A program made the translations under genes and the position numbers. 64,000 nucleotides of DNA from Oceanococcus sp. HetDA_MAG_MS8 (GTDB lineage: Bacteria; Pseudomonadota; Gammaproteobacteria; Nevskiales; Oceanococcaceae): the NCBI GenBank assembly GCA_019192445.1, contig JAHCMK010000001.1, positions 620,001 to 684,000 of the forward strand, read 5' to 3'. Positions 7,720-64,000 of this stretch are shown one piece after another. The stretch's first letter is position 1. The number at the start of each line of letters is the position of its first letter. The notes under the pieces are model-generated. The model saw only the letters and a program-made list of their open reading frames with translations, searched no databases and was not told the origin of the DNA.

Positions 7720-8459
7720 GCGTCTTGTCCACCACCTTCCATCGCTGGGGCTCTCCGCCCACGTTCTACCGCTTTGCCGGGCGTGCATTGCCGTGGTTTG
7801 GCTGGCCCGCCTTGCTACTGATTGTGTGGGGGCTTTACGGGGCTTTATGGCAAGCCCCCGCGGATTATCAGCAGGGCGAAGGCTTTCGCATCATCTACGC
7901 CCATGTTCCTGCAGCGTGGATGAGCTTATTCATCTACACCTCCATGGCTGTGGCCGGGGCCATCGTGTTGATTTGGCGGATGAAGGTCGCTGAGGTCTAC
8001 ATTGCTGAGGCCGCCTTGGTAGGCGCCGGCTTCACAGCGGTGAGCTTGGCAACCGGCATGCTCTGGGGCAAACCCATGTGGGGCACATGGTGGGTCTGGG
8101 ACGCGCGCCTCACATCGCAACTGATTCTGCTGTTCTTATATCTGGGCGTGCTGGCTTTGCACCAAGCCCTGCCTGATGCGCGTACCGCCGCACGCGCTTG
8201 CGCCATCCTCGCGGTGGTGGGTGTTATCAATGTGCCCGTGGTGCATTACTCGGTGGAATGGTGGAATACCTTGCACCAAGGAGCCAGCATTACCCGCTTG
8301 GATAAACCTGCTATGCCTGCGGCCATGCTGTGGCCCCTTTTGCAAGTTGCATTGGGCTGCATGCTGTTTTTTGGGTGGGTGGTTTTGATCCGCATGCGAG
8401 CGGGAATTTTATGGCGAGAACGGCGTCAAAGATGGGTGCAGGAGGTCTTGACTCAGTGA
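7716..8459 (+). CDS. ccmC: Heme exporter/handling protein CcmC
   Basis: CcmC presents heme in the periplasm and loads it onto CcmE. The 247-residue protein has six predicted membrane helices and the heme-handling WWD signature WGKPMWGTWWVWDARLTSQ (residues 118-135). External histidine ligands are expected from YAHVPAAW (His63) and VVHYSVEWW. The stop codon overlaps the GTG start of ccmD. Confidence 0.96.
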   Translation: MSVLSTTFHRWGSPPTFYRFAGRALPWFGWPALLLIVWGLYGALWQAPADYQQGEGFRIIYAHVPAAWMSLFIYTSMAVAGAIVLIWRMKVAEVYIAEAALVGAGFTAVSLATGMLWGKPMWGTWWVWDARLTSQLILLFLYLGVLALHQALPDARTAARACAILAVVGVINVPVVHYSVEWWNTLHQGASITRLDKPAMPAAMLWPLLQVALGCMLFFGWVVLIRMRAGILWRERRQRWVQEVLTQ

Positions 8460-8611
8460 CTGAATTTCTCGCCATGGGGGGCTACGCAAAATATTTGTGG
8501 CCCAGCATGGGCTTGTTTGTCGCTTTGCTTCTGGGGCTGGCGTGGTCCTCAGTGCAACGTCACCAGCGCACAGTGACACGCCTACGGCAGCAACTAGGAA
8601 GAAGGACATGA
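8456..8611 (+). CDS. ccmD: Heme exporter protein CcmD
   Basis: A 51-residue reading frame starts at a GTG overlapping the ccmC stop and ends overlapping the ccmE start (ATGA). It begins MTEFLAMGGYAKYLWPS, with the aromatic Gly-Tyr segment typical of CcmD. One membrane helix follows (MGLFVALLLGLAWSSV) and then a basic cytoplasmic tail rich in Arg and Gln. CcmD keeps the CcmABC complex and holo-CcmE release working. Position, size and topology all fit; sequence conservation in this family is low. Confidence 0.88.
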   Translation: MTEFLAMGGYAKYLWPSMGLFVALLLGLAWSSVQRHQRTVTRLRQQLGRRT

Positions 8612-9075
8612 CGCGTCGTCAAAGACGAATGGCCATGGTGATCAGCCTCATCGTCGGAGTGACCGCCATTGTGGTTGTCGCCACTCAGGTTTTTGAACAG
8701 AACCTGATGTACTTTTACAGCGCCACAGAATTAACCACGACACCACCATCTGCCGATAGCCGAATTCGTTTTGGTGGTTTGGTCGTGCCAGGCAGCGTGG
8801 ATCGTACGCCAGGCGAAATTGAGGTGGAGTTCGTGCTCGCCGATTGTGACCACGCGGTTCCTGTGGCCTTTTCTGGGATTCTTCCCGATTTGTTTCGTGA
8901 AGGTCAGGGCATCGTCGCCAGTGGCTTCTACCGCGAGGGTGTGTTTCAGGCCGAAGAAGTTTTGGCCAAGCATGATGAAAACTATATGCCCCCAGAGCTG
9001 GCCCAAGCCTTGGGTGGGGAGGGTAATCAACACTCCTGTGCCCCCTTCAAAAGCCTAGAAGAGGCCAAGCTATGA
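8608..9075 (+). CDS. ccmE: Cytochrome c-type biogenesis heme chaperone CcmE
   Basis: CcmE binds heme covalently in the periplasm and hands it to CcmF. The 155-residue protein has an N-terminal membrane anchor (residues 8-27) followed by an OB-fold beta domain. The heme-binding motif HDENY is complete, with His122 as the covalent attachment site and Tyr126 as ligand. The open frame extends upstream to 8497 through ccmD, but the ATG at 8608 gives the family length. It overlaps the ccmF start by 4 bp. Confidence 0.96.
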   Translation: MTRRQRRMAMVISLIVGVTAIVVVATQVFEQNLMYFYSATELTTTPPSADSRIRFGGLVVPGSVDRTPGEIEVEFVLADCDHAVPVAFSGILPDLFREGQGIVASGFYREGVFQAEEVLAKHDENYMPPELAQALGGEGNQHSCAPFKSLEEAKL

Positions 9076-11036
9076 GCACTCCAGGCTTGGCCGCGAGCGG
9101 TCATCTGGCGCTCGCCTTTGCCTTGGTGCTGTGCGCTACCCAGGCGCTCACAGCGAGCCTAGGTTATTGGCGCCGCAATGCTGCATTGGTCCATACGGCT
9201 TCGCAGACCGCTTATGCCTTGTTTGCCGTCACGGCGGCAGCCTTCGCGGTACTGATCACCGCGTTTGTCCAAAACGACTTCAGCATTGCCTACGTTGCCA
9301 ATCATTCCAATACCTTATTGCCCGTGCACTACCGTGTGGCGGCGACTTGGGGCGGCCACGAGGGTTCGTTATTGCTATGGGCCCTGATGTTGGCAGGCTG
9401 GAATATGGCCGTAGCGCTGACCCTGCGCCAGCGCGCCCTGGATGTCAGCGCCGGCGTATTGGCCACCTTAGGCGCAGTGGGCTTGGGCTTCATGCTTTTC
9501 ATGCTCGGTACCAGCAACCCCTTTGAGCGGGGTTTTCCGGTCCCTACCCAGGGCCGTGATCTCAATCCACTGCTGCAAGACCCCGGCCTGATTTTCCACC
9601 CGCCGATGCTCTACATGGGCTACGTAGGGTTTTCCGTTGCTTTTGCCTTTGCGGTAACCGCCCTGGTGCAAGGGCGCCTGGACGCCGCTTGGATTCGCTG
9701 GGTGCGACCCTGGACAAATGCAGCATGGGTGTTTCTCACCCTAGGTATCGCACTGGGTAGCTGGTGGGCCTATAACGAGCTGGGCTGGGGCGGATGGTGG
9801 TTTTGGGACCCGGTAGAGAATGCCTCCTTCATGCCTTGGTTGGTTGGTACAGCCTTGATGCACTCTTTGGCGGTCACCGAGAAGCGCGGACACCTAGTGA
9901 GCTGGACCTTACTCCTGGCCATCGCGGCATTTTCACTGAGCCTGCTTGGCACCTTCTTAGTCCGCTCAGGTGTACTCGTTTCGGTGCATGCTTTTGCCTC
10001 AGATCCATCGCGCGGCGTTTTCATCCTCGCCTTCTTCGCTGCGACGGTGGGCTTGTCGCTGCTGCTATTTGCCCTGCGTGGTCATACGGTGCGAATGGCA
10101 CCGGGGCCGTTATCGCTAGGTTCCAAAGAAGGCTTACTTCTGCTGAACAATTTATTGCTGACCGTCGCGGCCGCGAGCGTCTTGCTCGGCACCTTATACC
10201 CCTTAGTCGTAGATGCCATGGGCTTGCCCAAACCATCGGTAGGGCCACCTTGGTTCAACGCGACATTTGTCCCCTTGATGCTGCCTGCACTCGTGCTCTG
10301 CGCGGCGGGCTTCTTCGTTCCGTGGCGCTCTGGCCGAGCAGCGGCCTTATGGCGCGCTGCAGCGGTCTGCATACCCATGGCTTTGATACTCAGCCTGTTG
10401 CTCATGCTCAGTGCGCGCAGCGACATTCGCCTGAGTGCATGGTTGGGCTTAGCTTGTGGCGCGCTCACTTTGGTGGCGGCCCTATGGGCTATCATCCAGC
10501 GGGCACGTCGCGGCTCTGGTTGGACGCGTTCTTGGCTGGGCATGACTGTGGCCCACTTTGGCCTGGGCGTGTTCGCCTTAGGGGTCGGTTTAGTATCGGC
10601 AGCAGATTATGAACGCGATATTGCTTTAGCCCCGGGTGAAACGGTGGAAATGGGCGGCTATGACTGGAGCCTCATGCAGATGGGGCCGGTTGAAGGCCCA
10701 AACTACGTCGGTGATCGCGGTGTGGTTCAAGTGGCGCGCGACGGCAAGCTCATAGCAACGCTTAGTCCTGAAAAACGCATTTATCACTCGCAGCCGAATA
10801 ACCCCATGACCGAATCGGCCGTCGATGCCGGTGTACTGCGCGATTTGTATGTATCGCTGGGTGAACCTCTGGGCGCCAATCGCTGGAGTTTACGGGTGTA
10901 CTACAAACCACTCATGCGCTGGGTGTGGGGTGGGGCCGTGCTGATGGCCTTGGGCGGCGCTCTGGCCATGTCGGACCGACGCTACTATCGGCAACGCCGC
11001 ACGCAGCCGACGGTTGCCCGGGAGGCCTTGGCGTAA
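9072..11036 (+). CDS. ccmF: Heme lyase CcmF
   Basis: CcmF ligates heme from CcmE to apocytochrome c. The 654-residue polytopic membrane protein carries the periplasmic WWD domain: WGGHEGSLLLW near residue 94 and WGGWWFWDPVENASFMPWL near residue 240. The conserved histidines flanking these loops are present (VHYRVAATWGG, FHPPMLYMGY, LMHSLAVTEKRG). A periplasmic beta domain precedes the last membrane segment. Length is normal. Its stop (TAA) shares one base with the ccmG start. Confidence 0.97.
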   Translation: MSTPGLAASGHLALAFALVLCATQALTASLGYWRRNAALVHTASQTAYALFAVTAAAFAVLITAFVQNDFSIAYVANHSNTLLPVHYRVAATWGGHEGSLLLWALMLAGWNMAVALTLRQRALDVSAGVLATLGAVGLGFMLFMLGTSNPFERGFPVPTQGRDLNPLLQDPGLIFHPPMLYMGYVGFSVAFAFAVTALVQGRLDAAWIRWVRPWTNAAWVFLTLGIALGSWWAYNELGWGGWWFWDPVENASFMPWLVGTALMHSLAVTEKRGHLVSWTLLLAIAAFSLSLLGTFLVRSGVLVSVHAFASDPSRGVFILAFFAATVGLSLLLFALRGHTVRMAPGPLSLGSKEGLLLLNNLLLTVAAASVLLGTLYPLVVDAMGLPKPSVGPPWFNATFVPLMLPALVLCAAGFFVPWRSGRAAALWRAAAVCIPMALILSLLLMLSARSDIRLSAWLGLACGALTLVAALWAIIQRARRGSGWTRSWLGMTVAHFGLGVFALGVGLVSAADYERDIALAPGETVEMGGYDWSLMQMGPVEGPNYVGDRGVVQVARDGKLIATLSPEKRIYHSQPNNPMTESAVDAGVLRDLYVSLGEPLGANRWSLRVYYKPLMRWVWGGAVLMALGGALAMSDRRYYRQRRTQPTVAREALA

Positions 11037-11569
11037 TGCGCTACCTGTGGGGCTTACCCATCATCGCGGTCGGGGCCATGATCTGGGTCTTGGCGCAGGG
11101 GCTCAAGCTTGACCCTTCAGAGATTGAGTCACCACTTCTGAATCAAGCTGCTCCGGACTTTGCGTCGACTCGCTTGCACGATGGGCTGACAACCTCGCTA
11201 GAAGACCTGCGTGGTGAAGTCACTTTACTGAATGTATGGGCGAGCTGGTGTGTGGCCTGCCGGCAGGAGCACCCACTTCTCAACGACATGGCACGCGCAA
11301 ACGTGGTGCGCATCGTGGGACTGAACTACAAAGACACGCCCGAGCAGGCCAAAGACTGGCTGGCCCGACTGGGCAACCCCTATGCCTGGAGCGTGGTCGA
11401 CCAAAGCGGCCGTATCGGCATTGATTATGGCGTCTATGGCGTGCCAGAGACCTTCGTATTGGATCAACAAGGTGTGATTCGCGCCAAGCGCATCGGGCCC
11501 ATCACGCCCGACTATTTGGAGCAACAACTTCTACCCCTGCTGGATCAACTCCGGGCGGAGCAAGGCTAA
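11036..11569 (+). CDS. ccmG: Thiol:disulfide interchange protein CcmG (DsbE)
   Basis: CcmG is a membrane-anchored periplasmic thioredoxin-fold protein that reduces the apocytochrome CxxCH site for heme ligation. The 177-residue protein has an N-terminal anchor (residues 3-21) and the active site WASWCVACRQEHP (Cys72, Cys75). It also has the CcmG-specific GVYGVPETFVLD loop with its cis-Pro. The middle residues VA between the cysteines differ from the common PT/VT. The frame is open upstream to 10925, overlapping ccmF, but the ATG at 11036 gives the expected length and signal anchor. Confidence 0.95.
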   Translation: MRYLWGLPIIAVGAMIWVLAQGLKLDPSEIESPLLNQAAPDFASTRLHDGLTTSLEDLRGEVTLLNVWASWCVACRQEHPLLNDMARANVVRIVGLNYKDTPEQAKDWLARLGNPYAWSVVDQSGRIGIDYGVYGVPETFVLDQQGVIRAKRIGPITPDYLEQQLLPLLDQLRAEQG

Positions 11570-12018
11570 TGCGCAGACTCATTGCATTCTTGCTGCTCAG
11601 CCTGGCAGCCCTGAGCGGCCAGACTGCCGATGTTGACCCAGACCGTCTCCGCGCCTTATCCGAGGAGCTGCGCTGCTTGGTCTGTCAAAACCAGTCCATC
11701 GCCGAGTCGCAGGCGCCCCTGGCTCAAGATCTACGCGAGGAACTGGAGAGACTGATCCGCGAAGGCCGAACAGATGCTGAAATCCGCCATTGGATGGTGT
11801 CTCGCTATGGCGACTTTGTGCTCTACCGCCCGCCGTTGAGGCCTCGCACCTGGGCCTTGTGGTTTGGCCCTCCGGTCCTGGTCGTATTGGGTTTGTTGTT
11901 GATATGGGGCGTAGTCAAGCGACAGCGACAACATCCGCCGCTAACGACTGAAATTGACGAAGAAAAGTTGCAAGCCGCCTTGAAAACCGGCGCACACGAC
12001 CCAGGTCCTAATCAATGA
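11569..12018 (+). CDS. ccmH: Cytochrome c-type biogenesis protein CcmH (CcmL-type)
   Basis: The 149-residue protein has a signal peptide (residues 1-19) and the thiol motif LRCLVCQNQSIAESQAPLA (Cys36, Cys39). It ends in a membrane helix after RPPLRPRTWALWFGP. It belongs to the short CcmH form, which lacks the TPR domain of E. coli CcmH; that part is encoded separately by the next gene. It works with CcmG and CcmF in heme ligation. The start shares one base with the ccmG stop, and the end overlaps ccmI by 4 bp. Confidence 0.94.
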   Translation: MRRLIAFLLLSLAALSGQTADVDPDRLRALSEELRCLVCQNQSIAESQAPLAQDLREELERLIREGRTDAEIRHWMVSRYGDFVLYRPPLRPRTWALWFGPPVLVVLGLLLIWGVVKRQRQHPPLTTEIDEEKLQAALKTGAHDPGPNQ

Positions 12019-13211
12019 CGGGATTCTTTCTCACCGCAGCGCTGGGTACAACCCTTTGGGCGCTGCTCTGCGTGCGTGCATGGCGTGGCGGTGGCAGCGC
12101 AGCGTCGCAGCGTCAGGCCATCAATGCGGCAGATTACGCAGCAGGGTTAGATCGCATCAAAGCAGCGCAAGACAATGGCGAGCTTGATGCTCAGCAAGCG
12201 CAACAAGAGACCCTCCGGCTTAAACAACAACTACTTCTGGCGACCGAAGCTGAAGCTGAGCAGAGCGCCGCGAGTTGGAGCCACAATCTTCGCGGACCTG
12301 CCAAGATAGCTTTGCTTGTGCTTCCACTGAGCTTAGCCAGCATCGTCTTTTTACTCACCCAAGGCCAGGCCCATTGGCCCCAAGCCCAGGTCGCACCCAG
12401 CGCCGCCGATGTGGAAGGGATGGTCGCGCAATTGGCCAGCCGCCTCGAGCAAAACCCCGAGGACACCCAGGGCTGGTTAATGCTTGGGCGGTCTTACATG
12501 GTGATGCAGCGCTACCCACAAGCAGCGCAGGCCTTGCGCGAAGCGAATACCAGAATGCAGCCGCCCATTACCGCTGCACAGCTTGCCGAAGCAGAAGCCC
12601 TTGCTCTTGCCGGCGATCCGGAGTTCGCACAGCGAGGCCGGGTGCTTCTGCAGCAAGTCCTCAATGCCGAGCCCAATAACGTACGCGCCCTGTGGTACGC
12701 CGGCTTGGCGGCGCAGGTTGCCGGAGATGATTCGGCCGCGCAAGGAGCTTTTGAGCGACTACGATCTCAGCCGGACTTACCACCGGAAGTGGCCAGAGCT
12801 TTAGACCAACTCGCCGCCAGCAAACCGGCGCAACCGGCATCACCCTCAGCGGCCAGCGTCGAAGAAGCACCAGAGATCACATTGCGCATTGAACTCGGCG
12901 ACGACCTTCGAAACCAGCCCAGGCCAAGCCAGACTCTGTTTGTCGTGGCCAAACGTCCAAATGGTCCTCCCATGCCCTTAGCGGCGCGCAAGTTACAAAC
13001 CCAGAACTTTCCGCTGCAGGTGAAGCTTGGTCCGGAGCATCTGTTGCGACCGGATAACAATTGGAGCGCACAAGACCGCCTCCTGATCACCGCCCGACTC
13101 TCCACTTCAGGCCAAGCAATTGCGCAAAGCGGGGATTGGCAGGGCCAAGAAATCTGGGCAGGGCAGGCCGACTCTGCACTGACCATCAAGCTCAACACCG
13201 TCCTGCCTTAG
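12015..13211 (+). CDS. ccmI: Cytochrome c-type biogenesis protein CcmI (TPR domain)
   Basis: CcmI chaperones apocytochrome c to the heme ligation complex. The 398-residue protein has two membrane helices (residues 1-17 and roughly 96-115) with a cytoplasmic coiled-coil-like loop between them (ALDRIKAAQDNGELDAQQAQQE type). TPR repeats follow at about 135-270 (EDTQGWLMLGRSYMVMQRY, NNVRALWYAGLAAQVAGD). A C-terminal periplasmic domain follows (ITLRIELGDDL, LFVVAKRPNGPPMPLAARKL). It is the last gene of the ccm operon; no terminator is obvious before the next gene. Confidence 0.93.
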   Translation: MTGFFLTAALGTTLWALLCVRAWRGGGSAASQRQAINAADYAAGLDRIKAAQDNGELDAQQAQQETLRLKQQLLLATEAEAEQSAASWSHNLRGPAKIALLVLPLSLASIVFLLTQGQAHWPQAQVAPSAADVEGMVAQLASRLEQNPEDTQGWLMLGRSYMVMQRYPQAAQALREANTRMQPPITAAQLAEAEALALAGDPEFAQRGRVLLQQVLNAEPNNVRALWYAGLAAQVAGDDSAAQGAFERLRSQPDLPPEVARALDQLAASKPAQPASPSAASVEEAPEITLRIELGDDLRNQPRPSQTLFVVAKRPNGPPMPLAARKLQTQNFPLQVKLGPEHLLRPDNNWSAQDRLLITARLSTSGQAIAQSGDWQGQEIWAGQADSALTIKLNTVLP

Positions 13212-13250
13212 ACTATCGTCAATCTGCAAACATCAAGACGCTTGGAACCC

Positions 13251-14111
13251 ATGAACAACACTCTGCAGTTCGATCGCATTCCGCCAACGCTGCCTCTTTT
13301 TGCCAAACTTGCCGTCACTAAGGCGAAACCTGAAAAAATTCTTCCAGTTCCGCTGATCGCGCAGGCCAGCGGCATCCGGCCGAAGGCTGAGGATGTGGAG
13401 AAGTATTTAGAAGTATGTGGCGGACAGGCCAATGGTCGTCTGCCCATTTTGTACCCCCAGGTGATGTCCACGCCGCTCACCATGAGCTTATTGGTGCACC
13501 CACAGTTTCCACTAGCGGCCCTGGGCCTGGTGCATGTGGAGAACACCGTCGAGCAACAGCGCGCGCCTCGTGTGGATGAGGCATTGGATTTTCTGGTAAC
13601 CATCCCCAACATCGAGCGAACCAGCCGCGGTTATGAGTTCGACATGCTCACGGAGGTCAGCGTAGAGGGGGAAAAGATTTGGCAATCCCGCGCCCGTATT
13701 TTGAGCCGAGCCAAAGATCCAAATGCCGCCAAAAAACCCCGAGAGCCGCGTCGCCCCCCCAGTGCTAGCGACTGGCCTCTGATTGAAACCTACTCCTTGG
13801 CCCCCAACTTGGGTCGTCGTTACGCGCGCGTCTCTGGCGACTTCAACCCGATTCACCTCTACGCGAATACCGCCAAACTTTTGGGCTTTAAGCGCGCCAT
13901 CATTCATGGCATGTGGTCTGCTGCTGCAACTGCAGTGGCTTTGGATATCGGTCCAGGCCCTGGGGTTTTCGACTGCGAGTTCAAGACACCCCTATTTCTC
14001 CCCGGCAAGGCGAATCTCCACGCCAAAGCCAGCACCAAAGGGCGTGAGTTCCTGCTCCAGGACGCCAAGAGCTTTAAACCTATCTTGAGCGGTAGCTACA
14101 AACAGGGTTGA
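13251..14111 (+). CDS. MaoC-like hot-dog dehydratase
   Basis: The C-terminal half of this 286-residue protein carries the hydratase-2 motif ARVSGDFNPIHLYANTAKL (about residues 192-210). The catalytic-type Asp and His are in DFNPIH, and AIIHGMWS follows. The N-terminal half looks like a second, degenerate hot-dog domain. Such double hot-dog proteins hydrate 2-enoyl-CoA or related thioesters in lipid metabolism. The substrate is not deducible. A TTG 9 bp upstream is also in frame; the ATG at 13251 was chosen. It lies between ccmI and galU with no evident functional link to either. Confidence 0.85.
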   Translation: MNNTLQFDRIPPTLPLFAKLAVTKAKPEKILPVPLIAQASGIRPKAEDVEKYLEVCGGQANGRLPILYPQVMSTPLTMSLLVHPQFPLAALGLVHVENTVEQQRAPRVDEALDFLVTIPNIERTSRGYEFDMLTEVSVEGEKIWQSRARILSRAKDPNAAKKPREPRRPPSASDWPLIETYSLAPNLGRRYARVSGDFNPIHLYANTAKLLGFKRAIIHGMWSAAATAVALDIGPGPGVFDCEFKTPLFLPGKANLHAKASTKGREFLLQDAKSFKPILSGSYKQG

Positions 14112-59804: not shown

Positions 59805-61055
59805 CTAGGCTGAGTAACGCTTGAAGATTAGGGTGCCGTTGGTTCCGCCGAAACCAAAGGAATTAGAGAGCACATGTTCAATGGACATTGAACGAGCCTG
59901 ATGCGGCACTAGATCCAGATCACAGGCTGGGTCTGGCTGGTCCAAGTTAATGGTGGGCGGTGCCACCTGATCACGCAGGCAGAGCACGCTGAGGACAGCC
60001 TCTAGGCCACCTGCAGCGCCTAATAAGTGCCCAGTCATGGACTTGGTAGAACTCACTGCCAAGGCCTGCGCTGCGGACCCGAACACCGTTTTGATGGCCG
60101 CAATTTCCGCCTTGTCGCCGGCCTGGGTCGATGTTCCGTGGGCGTTAATGTATTGCACATCAGAGGGGTCTAAAGCGGCGTCGCGCAAGGCATTACGCAT
60201 GCATTGGGCCGCACCGCTGCCGTCCTCGCGCGGCGAGGTGATGTGATACGCATCGCCACTCATCCCAAAGCCCACTAGCTCTGCATGAATTGTGGCGCCG
60301 CGTGCCTGCGCGTGCTCCAAGGACTCCAAGACCATCACGCCAGCGCCATCACTGAGCACAAAGCCATCGCGATTCTGATCAAAAGGCCGAGACGCTGTTT
60401 GCGGCGAATCATTCTGCGTACTCAAAGCACGCGCCGCGCAAAAACCCGCCATACCGGCCGGGCTTGAGCCCCGTTCAGCACCACCTGCAATCATGACATC
60501 CGCATCGCCAGCAGCAATTAATCGGGCTGAGATGCCAATGGAATGAGCGCCGGTGGTACAGGCTGTCACCGTAGCCAAATTCGGACCACGAGCACCGGTA
60601 AGAATTGAGATGTTGCCCGAGATCATATTGATGATGCTCGAAGGAACAAAAAACGGCGACACCCGCTTCACAGAGCCCGTGCGCACCATATTGCGCACGG
60701 TGTCTTCGATAGTTCCGATCCCGCCAATACCGCTGCCCACGTGCACGCCGATACGGTCTGCATTGGCCTCGGTGATTTCCAGTCCTGCGTGCTTGAGAGC
60801 GTCTACAGACGCTGCCACGCCATAGTGGATGAAGGGATCACACTTACGGGCTTCTTTAGGGCTGCCAAAATAGGGCACCGGATCAAAGTCTCGGATTTCT
60901 CCGGCAATGGTCGTGGTGTAACCCTCTGGCTCCCAAGCTTGAATGGGGCCGATGCCGCTACGCCCAGCTAACAGTCCTTCCCAGGTTTGTTCAACAGTGT
61001 TGCCCAAAGGCGTAATCGCCCCTAGGCCTGTGACTACTACCCGCCGCTGCTGCAT
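59805..61055 (-). CDS. fabF: Beta-ketoacyl-ACP synthase II
   Basis: FabF elongates acyl-ACP by condensation with malonyl-ACP. The 416-residue protein begins [19 protein letters not shown]. The nucleophile Cys166 is in [14 protein letters not shown], and the catalytic His residues lie in [13 protein letters not shown] and [29 protein letters not shown] ends the fold. The common family sequence at the nucleophile is ACATG; here it is ACTTG. It lies 35 bp after acpP. Confidence 0.97.
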
Positions 61056-61090: not shown

Positions 61091-61336
61091 TTAGGCCTCG
61101 TCGCTGGCGTTAGCTTGGATGTAATTCAGTACATCCTGGAAGGTCACGATCTTCTCGGCTTCCTCGTCCGGAATATCAATCTCGAACTCTTCTTCCAAAG
61201 CCATGACCAACTCGACTGTGTCCAAAGAGTCTGCCCCAAGATCATCGACGAACTTAGCGTCCGCGGTGATTTTGTCGATCTCGACGCTGAGTTGTTCGGC
61301 GATGATTTTCTTAACGCGTTCTGCAGTGTTGCTCAT
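61091..61336 (-). CDS. acpP: Acyl carrier protein
   Basis: The 81-residue acidic protein carries the acyl chain on phosphopantetheine during fatty-acid synthesis. The attachment Ser37 is in [37 protein letters not shown] is the typical start. The frame runs upstream to 61453, but that part ([17 protein letters not shown]) is non-coding; the ATG at 61336 is preceded by GGGAGA at a suitable distance. It lies between fabG and fabF as in E. coli. Confidence 0.98.
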
Positions 61337-61458: not shown

Positions 61459-62169
61459 TTAACCCATGTACATGCCGCCGTTCACATGCAGCGTTTGGCC
61501 GGTAATGTATGCGGCCTCATCACTGCATAAAAATCTGACGGCGGCGGCAATATCCTCGGGCTGGCCCAAACGACCAAGGGGGATACTACCAAGCAAGCTT
61601 TGCCGCTGTTCCTCGGACAAACCACGGGTCATGTCCGTATCAATAAACCCTGGGGCAACCACGTTAGCTGTGATTTCCCTAGAGGCCACCTCACGCGCCA
61701 ATGAGCGAGCAAAGCCCTCCAGGCCAGCCTTGCTAGCGGCATAGTTGGTTTGCCCGGCATTGCCGGCGGCCCCAACCACACTGCCCAAGCACACCACACG
61801 GCCAAACCGCTGTTTCATCATGCCGCGTAAGCAAGCCCGCGTGAGGGATATTGCCCCGATCAGGTTGGTGTGCAGCACCTCAGCAATGGCAGCGTCATCG
61901 AGGCGCAGTAGTAGGTTATCGCGGGTCACCCCAGCGTTATGAACTATGCATGCAAATGGCCCATGGGCCTTGACGAAGTCCGGGAAGCTTTGCGGCTGAG
62001 ACACATCGAGCACCGCGCCTTTGAGGCCTCGCTCCGTGATGGCTTGGGCCCCGTGTGCTGAAGTCGCCGTCCCTACCACCATATAGCCAGCGTCCTGCAA
62101 GGCATTCGCAATGGCAGCGCCAATGCCACGCGTCGCGCCGGTTACTAGCGCTGATCTTTGTTCAGTCAT
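61459..62169 (-). CDS. fabG: 3-oxoacyl-ACP reductase
   Basis: FabG reduces 3-oxoacyl-ACP with NADPH. The 236-residue SDR has [29 protein letters not shown] and the catalytic Ser-Tyr-Lys in [22 protein letters not shown]. The C-terminal family hallmark is [13 protein letters not shown], ending [15 protein letters not shown] at 62172 directly precedes the ATG at 62169; GGGGGA upstream serves either. It lies 45 bp after fabD. Confidence 0.96.
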
Positions 62170-62214
62170 CACTGATCCCCCTAAAAAGACCGGCCCGCCC
62201 TAGGGCCGGAATCA

Positions 62215-63156
62215 TTACTGTCCCTGTACCCATTGCATGCTTTCCGCTAGCCCCTCTGGCGCCGGAAATGCCTGAACGGCCAGCTCTACGCCACTGCGAC
62301 GCCCCAGGCCAGCCAACACATTGCCAGGGCCACATTCCAGGGCCCGAGCACAACCAAAGTCTGCCTGGATGCGCTGCTGAGTGCGTACCCACTGCACTGG
62401 TGAATGCACCTGATCCAACAACGCGGCCTGAACATTCGCGGTTCCCTGCCGCACCTGAGCGTCAACATTATGTAAGAGCGGGTAATGCGAATCGGACCAG
62501 CTCTCTTCGGCAAAGGCTGCCTCTAGCGGGCCTCGGGCGGTGCGCATCAGTCGACTATGGGCGGGCACGCTGACTGGCAGCCGCCGCGCCATTCGGGCAC
62601 CCGCGTCTTTGGCTGCGCTGCACACGGCGTCCACAGCGGCAACCTCCCCGGCAATAACCACTTGCGTCGGCGCATTCATGTTCACCGCGTCCACGATCCC
62701 GGCACTGTGCGCGGCGCAGAGCTGCTCTACGCGGGCAGCGTCTAAGCCCACCACAGCGGCCATGGCGCCAGTGCCTTTGGGTACGGCCTCCTGCATGGCG
62801 CGGGCCCGGACGGCCACGATACGGAGCGCCGCGGCGAACTCCAGCACGCCCGCAGCGACTGCCGCCGCATACTCGCCCAAGGAGTGGCCTGCGACGACCG
62901 CAGGTTGTGCGCCGCCTTCTTCCAACCACACCCGCCACAAGGCCACATCCGCCAGCAACATCGCCGGCTGGGTGTTCTGGGTTTGATCCAACTCGCAGCT
63001 GGGACCCTGCCCCATCAAAGTGCTGAGGGGACGCCGCAAGATGCTATCTGCTTCTTCAATGAGCTCACGCACACATGTGTAGCGCTCAGCCCAATCTTTG
63101 AGCATGCCGACTCGTTGCGACCCCTGTCCGGGGAACAGCATGGCAAAGCCCGTCAT
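62215..63156 (-). CDS. fabD: Malonyl-CoA:ACP transacylase
   Basis: FabD loads malonyl groups onto ACP. The 313-residue protein starts MTGFAMLFPGQGSQRVGML. The nucleophile Ser92 is in VVAGHSLGEYAA, with the conserved Arg in VRARAMQEAVPKGTGAM and His in VSVPAHSRLM. The preferred ATG at 63156 has GGGAG upstream and overlaps the rhombosortase stop by 4 bp (ATGA). The usual upstream neighbours fabH and plsX are not here. Confidence 0.97.
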   Translation of the reverse strand: MTGFAMLFPGQGSQRVGMLKDWAERYTCVRELIEEADSILRRPLSTLMGQGPSCELDQTQNTQPAMLLADVALWRVWLEEGGAQPAVVAGHSLGEYAAAVAAGVLEFAAALRIVAVRARAMQEAVPKGTGAMAAVVGLDAARVEQLCAAHSAGIVDAVNMNAPTQVVIAGEVAAVDAVCSAAKDAGARMARRLPVSVPAHSRLMRTARGPLEAAFAEESWSDSHYPLLHNVDAQVRQGTANVQAALLDQVHSPVQWVRTQQRIQADFGCARALECGPGNVLAGLGRRSGVELAVQAFPAPEGLAESMQWVQGQ

Positions 63157-63752
63157 GTCGATGAATCTCCCTGTATGCATGAATTCATAGCCGCCTGGAC
63201 CAACAGCCAAATACCGGCGCCAATAGCGCCAAAGCTATGTGCCTGGGTTAATACCGGAACGCCTACCAAGTCCTCATCGCTGGTCAACGGCCCCTGAAAA
63301 TGTTCCCAACCCAGCTTGAAGAGCAAGCCCAGCAGCAGCAGCAAGGCTAACCGATCTCCACTGCGCCACAACCACCACAGACCAAAGACGAAACTTCCAT
63401 GCAGCACCCCGGACAAGCCCACGTACCAACCCAAACCCGGCAGGCTGAACATCGCCAGGCTGATAAATAGCGCCAACCATGCAAAGCGCAAAAACTGCTC
63501 AAGCAGCGTTCGAGGTTCCGGAAACAACCAAGCAATAAGCACTAGCCCCATAAGGTTCAAGCCCACGTGCGGCCAGCTGGCATGGATAAGGTGCCCCGTC
63601 CAGAGCCGCCACCAATCGAACTCTGCCAAAGCAGCGCGGTCCCAGCGCAGTAATTCCAAGGCGGCCTGCCCTCCACTTTGGGCCAAAACAATGACCAAGC
63701 CCATCAACAAACAAAACCGGCTGGTGCCGGAGAGTTGCAGTGTCGGTATCAT
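63153..63752 (-). CDS. rrtA: Rhombosortase (rhomboid-family GlyGly-CTERM processing protease)
   Basis: The 199-residue membrane protein is a small rhomboid of the rhombosortase kind. It has WWRLWTGHLIHASWPHVGLNLMGL, the catalytic Ser114 in YVGLSGVLHGSF, and the catalytic His172 in TQAHSFGAIGAG. About six helices are predicted, typical of this short family. Rhombosortases cut the C-terminal GlyGly-CTERM sorting tail of proteins sent out by type II secretion. No such substrate tail is seen in this window. ATG 63761 is an alternative start. It is divergent from gspG and coupled to fabD. Confidence 0.87.
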   Translation of the reverse strand: MIPTLQLSGTSRFCLLMGLVIVLAQSGGQAALELLRWDRAALAEFDWWRLWTGHLIHASWPHVGLNLMGLVLIAWLFPEPRTLLEQFLRFAWLALFISLAMFSLPGLGWYVGLSGVLHGSFVFGLWWLWRSGDRLALLLLLGLLFKLGWEHFQGPLTSDEDLVGVPVLTQAHSFGAIGAGIWLLVQAAMNSCIQGDSST

Positions 63753-63783
63753 TCGTCCCATGAAACTTTCGTCAGTCCTCAAT

Positions 63784-64000
63784 ATGTCGCACTCACAGCG
63801 TTCACAATCTGGCTTCACCTTGATCGAAATCATGGTGGTGGTCGTGATCTTGGCCATTCTGGCCGCAGCCGTCGTTCCGCGCATCATGGGTCGCCCCGAT
63901 GAAGCGCGGATCACGAAAGCCAAACAGGATATCCGCGCCTTAGAAAGCGCGCTGGAGCTGTACCGGCTGGACAACTTCAACTACCCCAGCACCCAACAGG
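63784..64000 (+). CDS. gspG: Type II secretion major pseudopilin GspG, N-terminal part (cut by right edge)
   Basis: The frame from 63784 is open to the window end. It encodes a prepilin leader MSHSQRSQSG followed by FTLIEIMVVVVILAILAAAV. The prepilin peptidase site is G/F, with Glu at position 5 of the mature form. VPRIMGRPDEARITKAKQDI, then ALELYRLDNFNYPSTQQ, is the GspG consensus. An in-frame ATG at 63760 would lengthen the leader by 8 residues and overlap the rhombosortase start. GspG forms the periplasmic pseudopilus that drives export through the outer membrane secretin. Confidence 0.94.
   Translation, partial: MSHSQRSQSGFTLIEIMVVVVILAILAAAVVPRIMGRPDEARITKAKQDIRALESALELYRLDNFNYPSTQQ

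Follow-up and report, generated by a model that had tools for sequence, protein, structure and literature searches.

A rhombosortase gene between type II secretion and fatty acid synthesis genes in Oceanococcus: probable origin of the arrangement in an ancient inversion

At the end of the window (the whole stretch of 64,000 nucleotides that was analyzed), a rhombosortase gene, rrtA, heads a set of fatty acid synthesis genes and is divergent from the type II secretion system (T2SS) gene gspG. The union of rrtA with fabD probably arose by a single ancient inversion, and rrtA seems to belong to the T2SS cluster. The features concerned are the following.

59805..61055, minus strand: fabF (TIGR03150, 625.9 bits; cut-off, 493.75)
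61091..61336, minus strand: acpP, ATG start chosen (TIGR00517, 112.3 bits; cut-off, 70.45)
61459..62172, minus strand: fabG, GTG start, ATG at 62169 possible (NF009466 above cut-off; equivalog models below)
62215..63156, minus strand: fabD (TIGR00128, 296.2 bits; cut-off, 260.9)
63153..63156, minus strand: ATGA overlap of the rrtA stop and the fabD start (from the sequence)
63153..63752, minus strand: rrtA, rhombosortase, alternative start at 63761 (TIGR03902 score; invariant Ser117 and His175)
63747..63752, plus strand: TATCAT, candidate -10 element for gspG, overlapping the rrtA start codon (conservation of TATSAT)
63784..64000, plus strand: first part of gspG, alternative start at 63760, running beyond the window (TIGR01710, 85.6 bits on the cut part; remainder in L002)

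Identity and surroundings of rrtA

The catalytic pair of rhomboid proteases consists of Ser in a GxSG motif and His on a later helix. Both residues are encoded by the rrtA reading frame (minus strand; start ATG at 63750-63752, TGA at 63153-63155): Ser117, within GLSG, and His175, counted from the start at 63761, show no variation across 26 aligned members. The product scored 133.1 bits against TIGR03902 (cut-off, 84) in an NCBIfam equivalog search, in agreement with the rhombosortase call of the initial annotation, and by these sequence measures rrtA encodes a genuine rhombosortase. Simple hydropathy analysis gave five segments, one spanning 35 residues, compared with six expected transmembrane helices. 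The genome encodes a further rhomboid protease (G000:C2:69109-69531; L278), which scored 24.8 bits with the rhombosortase model and 85.6 bits with Pfam Rhomboid.

The GlyGly-CTERM model found 20 matches in the genome at an E value of ≤5. Among those listed, 13 were located: one is internal, and 12 lie at the C terminus, where they combine GG with a hydrophobic stretch and a basic end. The initial annotation had staked its reading on the presence of such proteins, and at least 12 C-terminal tails are present. Pfam matches above cut-off among the 12 tailed proteins include M4, M36 and M14 peptidases, a subtilase and a beta-lactamase-fold protein. BNR, sortilin-like or NPCBM-associated matches exceed the cut-off in three of the 12, while two have sub-threshold sortilin-like matches alone and two have no Pfam match. 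Three large sortilin-like proteins with GlyGly-CTERM tails (G000:C3:533685-542862, L269, and C3:511096-517158, L276) are probable paralogs, and two of them match Pfam below cut-off only.

The family score above cut-off and the retained Ser and His place rrtA within the rhombosortase/GlyGly-CTERM system (TIGR03902/TIGR03501; PMC3237569; Vibrio cholerae RssP and VesB, PMC6219818), which the genome also resembles in having a T2SS and many substrates with the tail features given above. It differs from the system in the accessible text of PMC3237569 in that rrtA lies in the gsp cluster or at its broken end, heading fab genes. According to that text, the rhombosortase gene adjoins the GlyGly-CTERM gene in single-substrate genomes, and the text of this founding paper, as far as accessible, reports no indication of rhombosortase as the marker of a T2SS subclass. 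In the open-license PMC literature, no report of rhombosortase together with fabD was found, nothing linking a rhomboid protease to gspG and type II secretion, and nothing judged related on an inversion joining type II secretion and the fabD operon; the accessible parts of its rhombosortase operon literature held nothing on a position beside gsp or fab.

Downstream of rrtA the gene order is fabD-fabG-acpP-fabF. FabD, ACP and FabF pass NCBIfam equivalog cut-offs, and FabG passes the subfamily cut-off of NF009466 only. The fabD ATG, at 63154-63156, shares 4 bp with the rrtA TGA, exactly as initially annotated. This order is that of the operon rpmF-plsX-fabH-fabD-fabG-acpP-fabF (present in L299, L300, L306 and L307), which we take to be of the Escherichia coli type, but the upstream plsX-fabH is replaced here by rrtA, and plsX faces gspF. 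The absence of fabH and plsX noted initially holds for this operon but not for the genome, as both genes lie on other contigs (plsX, C7:141659; fabH family, C8:18866 and C2:492696), which rules out their loss from the genome.

GspG scored 85.6 bits against the TIGR01710 cut-off of 88.85 because the window truncates the gene. Beyond the window, gspG leads into an apparent gspGHIJKLMN-mnmA-acnA run, in which the genes after gspG were named by inspection, and the divergence of rrtA and gspG is confirmed. From the rrtA ATG (63750-63752) there are 7 bp to the gspG ATG at 63760 and 31 bp to a second ATG at 63784. The latter is favored as the likelier start because it would give a 10-residue prepilin leader, and it reproduces the distance of about 30 bp originally given. 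Compared with a contiguous gspD-to-gspN cluster, gspDEF and gspGHIJKLMN are each in order, but the cluster is broken between gspF and gspG, at rrtA.

Conservation of the arrangement and of the rrtA-gspG control region

In the taxonomic order of the window, which we take to be GTDB's Nevskiales, 61 genomes were searched for a rhombosortase above cut-off. NCBI taxonomy places Panacagrimonas under Nevskiales and Oceanococcus under Chromatiales. All 41 genomes with such a gene have rrtA-fabD divergent from gspG; the adjacency, whose conservation was in question when it was first described, is therefore not peculiar to this strain. The spacing from the rrtA stop to the fabD start ranges from -4 to +135 across the 41 genomes, with overlap in 17, and the gap is positive in all 10 fab-linked genomes outside the order. 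The 4-bp overlap is not a general feature of the arrangement.

Rhombosortase and GlyGly-CTERM proteins co-occur across the order, with exceptions. The 41 genomes with rrtA have a median of 6 matches at E ≤ 5 (range, 1 to 20), compared with a median of 1 (range, 0 to 2) in 17 genomes of family f6 (presumably Salinisphaeraceae) without rrtA and none in G005; this cut-off is loose, as nine of 14 control genomes also match, one of them above the family cut-off. The exceptions are three genomes with rrtA and a single match each (G007, G050 and G051) and two in which no rrtA above cut-off was found, G016 (17 matches) and G060 (5 matches). In G016 the fabD contig ends at the expected rrtA site; in G060 no fabD was found at an E value of 1e-50.

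Rhombosortase above cut-off was found in 93 of 274 gammaproteobacterial genomes, and 92 (the window's own genome excluded) form the class survey. Its counts are lower bounds, because 19 of the 92 loci were read with 1.5-kb flanks only and 11 with <1.2 kb on one side. In at least 33 of the 92, gspG is divergent from rrtA within 1.5 kb, and fabD is next to rrtA in at least 10, all among these 33; no fabD linkage without gspG linkage occurred in the 10. In the remaining 23 of the 33, rrtA and gspG diverge but fabD is not alongside, and 14 of the 33 have neither fabD nor gspF beside rrtA. Reversed rrtA between gspF and gspG is found in at least nine of the 92, all among the 33 (gspF within ca. 330 bp in seven and 2.35 kb away in two), and one further genome has rrtA between these genes on the same strand.

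A scan of named records covered the best 80 of 533 relatives and is for that reason biased to this order. Among these 80 loci, 26 are rrtA-fabD, seven are rrtA-fabG without fabD, 12 have gspG only (three of them with gspF on the opposite side) and 35 have neither; Vibrio, Psychromonas and Colwellia loci within the 80 have neither a gspG nor a fab neighbor. Two loci (L191 and L217), missed by the distance or score limits of a recount, were placed in the fabD class. In L192, L195, L227, L228, L242, L245 and L251, no fabD was found, and fabG directly follows rrtA.

The initial annotation proposed a control region shared by the divergent genes. A TATSAT element facing gspG is present at the rrtA start in 38 of 41 order genomes (mean in shuffled sequences, 1.23; maximum, 4), and TGYTATSAT is present in 29 of 41 (shuffle mean, 0.02; maximum, 1); the copy in the window, TATCAT at 63747-63752, is without the TG extension. 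An in-frame gspG ATG lies 28 to 54 nt downstream in 32 of the 38, and in the other six such ATGs lie at 7 nt only or at ≥60 nt. The rrtA ATG at the element is replaced by ATC in five genomes (L026, L038, L045, L046 and L048), the element is out of the rrtA frame in L028 and L029, and G005 retains TGTTATGAT though it has no rrtA there. Conservation of ATGATA for rrtA translation alone is ruled out by these cases, and because the element persists in them, selection looks to act on DNA rather than on protein. We read TATSAT as the putative -10 element of the gspG promoter, and TGYTATSAT as what we presume to be an extended -10. Outside the order TGYTATSAT is rare (two of 10 fab-linked, one of nine in-cluster and one of 14 gspG-only genomes).

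On the rrtA strand, a search of short words shared by the 41 genomes gave no clear conserved promoter facing rrtA-fab, so that of the proposed shared region the gspG side stands, with its conserved -10-like element. The shared words were ATGATAACA words, GATAAT (12 of 41 genomes versus 0.7 expected, part of which overlaps the TATSAT-type element) and GC-rich words. A sigma-70 consensus scan of the region returned no promoter-like site (0.5 in shuffles), and there was one terminator-like site versus 2.3 in shuffles. Early in rrtA, a terminator-like hairpin with a T-rich tail lies at 63717-63730 on the minus strand, a type of site not above shuffles. Five loci of related genomes (L010, L014, L024, L025 and L030) have a GC-rich palindrome, AGGCG...CGCCTTT, just 5' of the rrtA start, with apparent paired changes; it may serve as an operator or fold as an RNA hairpin.

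Origin of the rrtA-fabD junction

In the older T2SS arrangement, rrtA would have stood reversed between gspF and gspG (gspD-E-F-> <-rrtA gspG->...N). An inversion cutting the DNA at gspF|rrtA and at fabH|fabD would have placed rrtA before fabD and gspF tail to tail with fabH-plsX-rpmF, and fabH would afterwards have gone from beside plsX in this order. We infer the event from the junctions: a single inversion would convert the old pair into the new pair, orientations included, and no intermediate was seen among the genomes compared.

Both old states, gspF-rrtA-gspG and rpmF-plsX-fabH-fabD, coexist in G279 and G074. The old fab state is present in four of 12 outgroup genomes fetched (L299, L300, L306 and L307) and was not seen in the other eight, in one of which the contig ends just past fabH. 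Both new junctions are present in this genome and its relatives. In this genome (L186), plsX is convergent with gspF-E-D, with 35 bp between the stops and with GspF, GspE, GspD and PlsX all above NCBIfam cut-offs. In the same order, plsX and gspF are also side by side in L290, L291, L293 and L294 but not in L292. With f6 excluded, 10 of 13 order genomes compared have gspE convergent with plsX at a distance of no more than 4 kb; in the remaining three the two genes are 10 kb apart (G060) or on different contigs (G009 and G016). Outside the order, G239 has gspF-> <-fabH-plsX-rpmF with ca. 73 bp between the stops, and the gap from gspF to fabH-plsX-rpmF is ca. 4 kb in G099 and ca. 10 kb in G226. 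By inspection, the gap in G226 (L308, about 7900-14000) holds lexA-imuA-imuB-dnaE2-like genes between fabH and gspF. In the other five of eight fab-linked class genomes examined, no gspF was in reach and this junction was not seen. In a gsp tree of 54 rows, fab-linked rows fall into three groups on a weak backbone, and the data do not reject a topology that unites f6 with every fab-linked row in one clade (p-AU, 0.408), so that one origin of the fab-linked loci is compatible with the tree, not proven by it.

Because the old and new junction states fit one inversion, rrtA appears to belong to the secretion module, with fabD as its neighbor by rearrangement. The same rearrangement, which also set plsX beside gspF, would account for the fab half of the arrangement.

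Alternatively, rrtA may have been recruited to the fab genes because sorted proteins attach to phospholipid, with the overlap coupling translation. We consider a functional operon of this kind unlikely. It would fit the adjacency in all 41 order genomes with rrtA and in 10 class genomes, the 17 overlaps, the seven loci of the best 80 named in which rrtA still abuts fabG after fabD has gone, and the glycerophosphoethanolamine-type moiety on Vibrio VesB described in the accessible text of PMC6219818. However, in 23 of 33 class cases rrtA stands beside gspG but lacks fabD as a neighbor, conservation does not extend to the overlap, 17 f6 genomes and G005 keep fabD without rrtA, the search for a conserved promoter facing rrtA-fab found none, and Vibrio rhombosortase loci have neither neighbor.

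The f6 genomes and G005 bear on another explanation, in which an rrtA-gspG-N block moved as a unit between fabD and nudJ-mnmA. In all 17 f6 genomes fabD is beside mnmA with no gsp genes there, nudJ lies between the two in L183 and L184, and G005 has gspG-N, without rrtA, between fabD and nudJ-mnmA. Such a translocation alone leaves gspF facing plsX or fabH-plsX unexplained, and rrtA-fabD also occurs in fab-linked loci outside the order, for which reason a later loss of the block is the better reading of f6. Part of the pattern could come from transposition of rrtA-gspG-N; as the whole account we rate such a move more doubtful still than recruitment. Chance neighborhood or assembly artifact deserves scarcely any credence, being refuted by a gene order that 41 genomes share and that independent named records repeat.

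Inversion remains the preferred reading, and the gsp genes of f6 count against it. The T2SS persists in f6 (gspE above cut-off in 14 of 17 genomes), and without rrtA the cluster is contiguous from gspD to gspN in L287 (G029) and from gspD to gspL within the stretch of L288 (G031). A foreign T2SS is disfavored, as both f6 gsp sets examined cluster with the window's order (support, 99/100). The contiguous f6 cluster does not fit the single inversion and would need a second rearrangement. Some f6 rhomboid proteins (e.g., G019:C1:1445006-1445464) score ca. 54 bits on the rhombosortase model, under the cut-off, and the genomes concerned have few or no GlyGly-CTERM matches.

Protein sorting and fatty acid supply

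By analogy with Vibrio, the rrtA product would act in the inner membrane, cutting the GlyGly-CTERM tail from exported proteins, and the cleaved proteins would be lipid tethered and then exported by the T2SS. In the accessible text of PMC6219818, Vibrio VesB needs rhombosortase, and an added mass of ethanolamine or glycerophosphoethanolamine at its new C terminus fits phosphatidylethanolamine; that of PMC13393428 has the GlyGly-CTERM tag direct proteins to RssP and the membrane. After the inversion, rrtA would probably share a transcript with the fab genes.

The initial annotation suggested that the arrangement might tie secretion, tail processing and lipid synthesis. As a reason for its existence this is not supported, given the 23 of 33 class loci without fabD and a fab half explained by rearrangement. 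A selected tie of rrtA to fatty acid supply is possible, and the anatomy is explained without it. The rearrangement may have built a working regulon, with the protease in step with fatty acid synthase and the gspG start competing with rrtA expression, but we regard this as improbable. If it were so, lipid supply would match the number of lipid-tethered proteins, and the overlapping control point would keep the secretion channel in balance with tail processing and with lipid supply.

The junction of rrtA with fabD should not be read as a designed operon without expression data. Lineages from before the rearrangement, from after it and from after the loss of rrtA are available as sets for comparison. 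For the family as a whole, rrtA divergent from gspG within 1.5 kb gives rhombosortase and the T2SS a physical genetic link in at least 33 of 92 gammaproteobacterial rhombosortase genomes.
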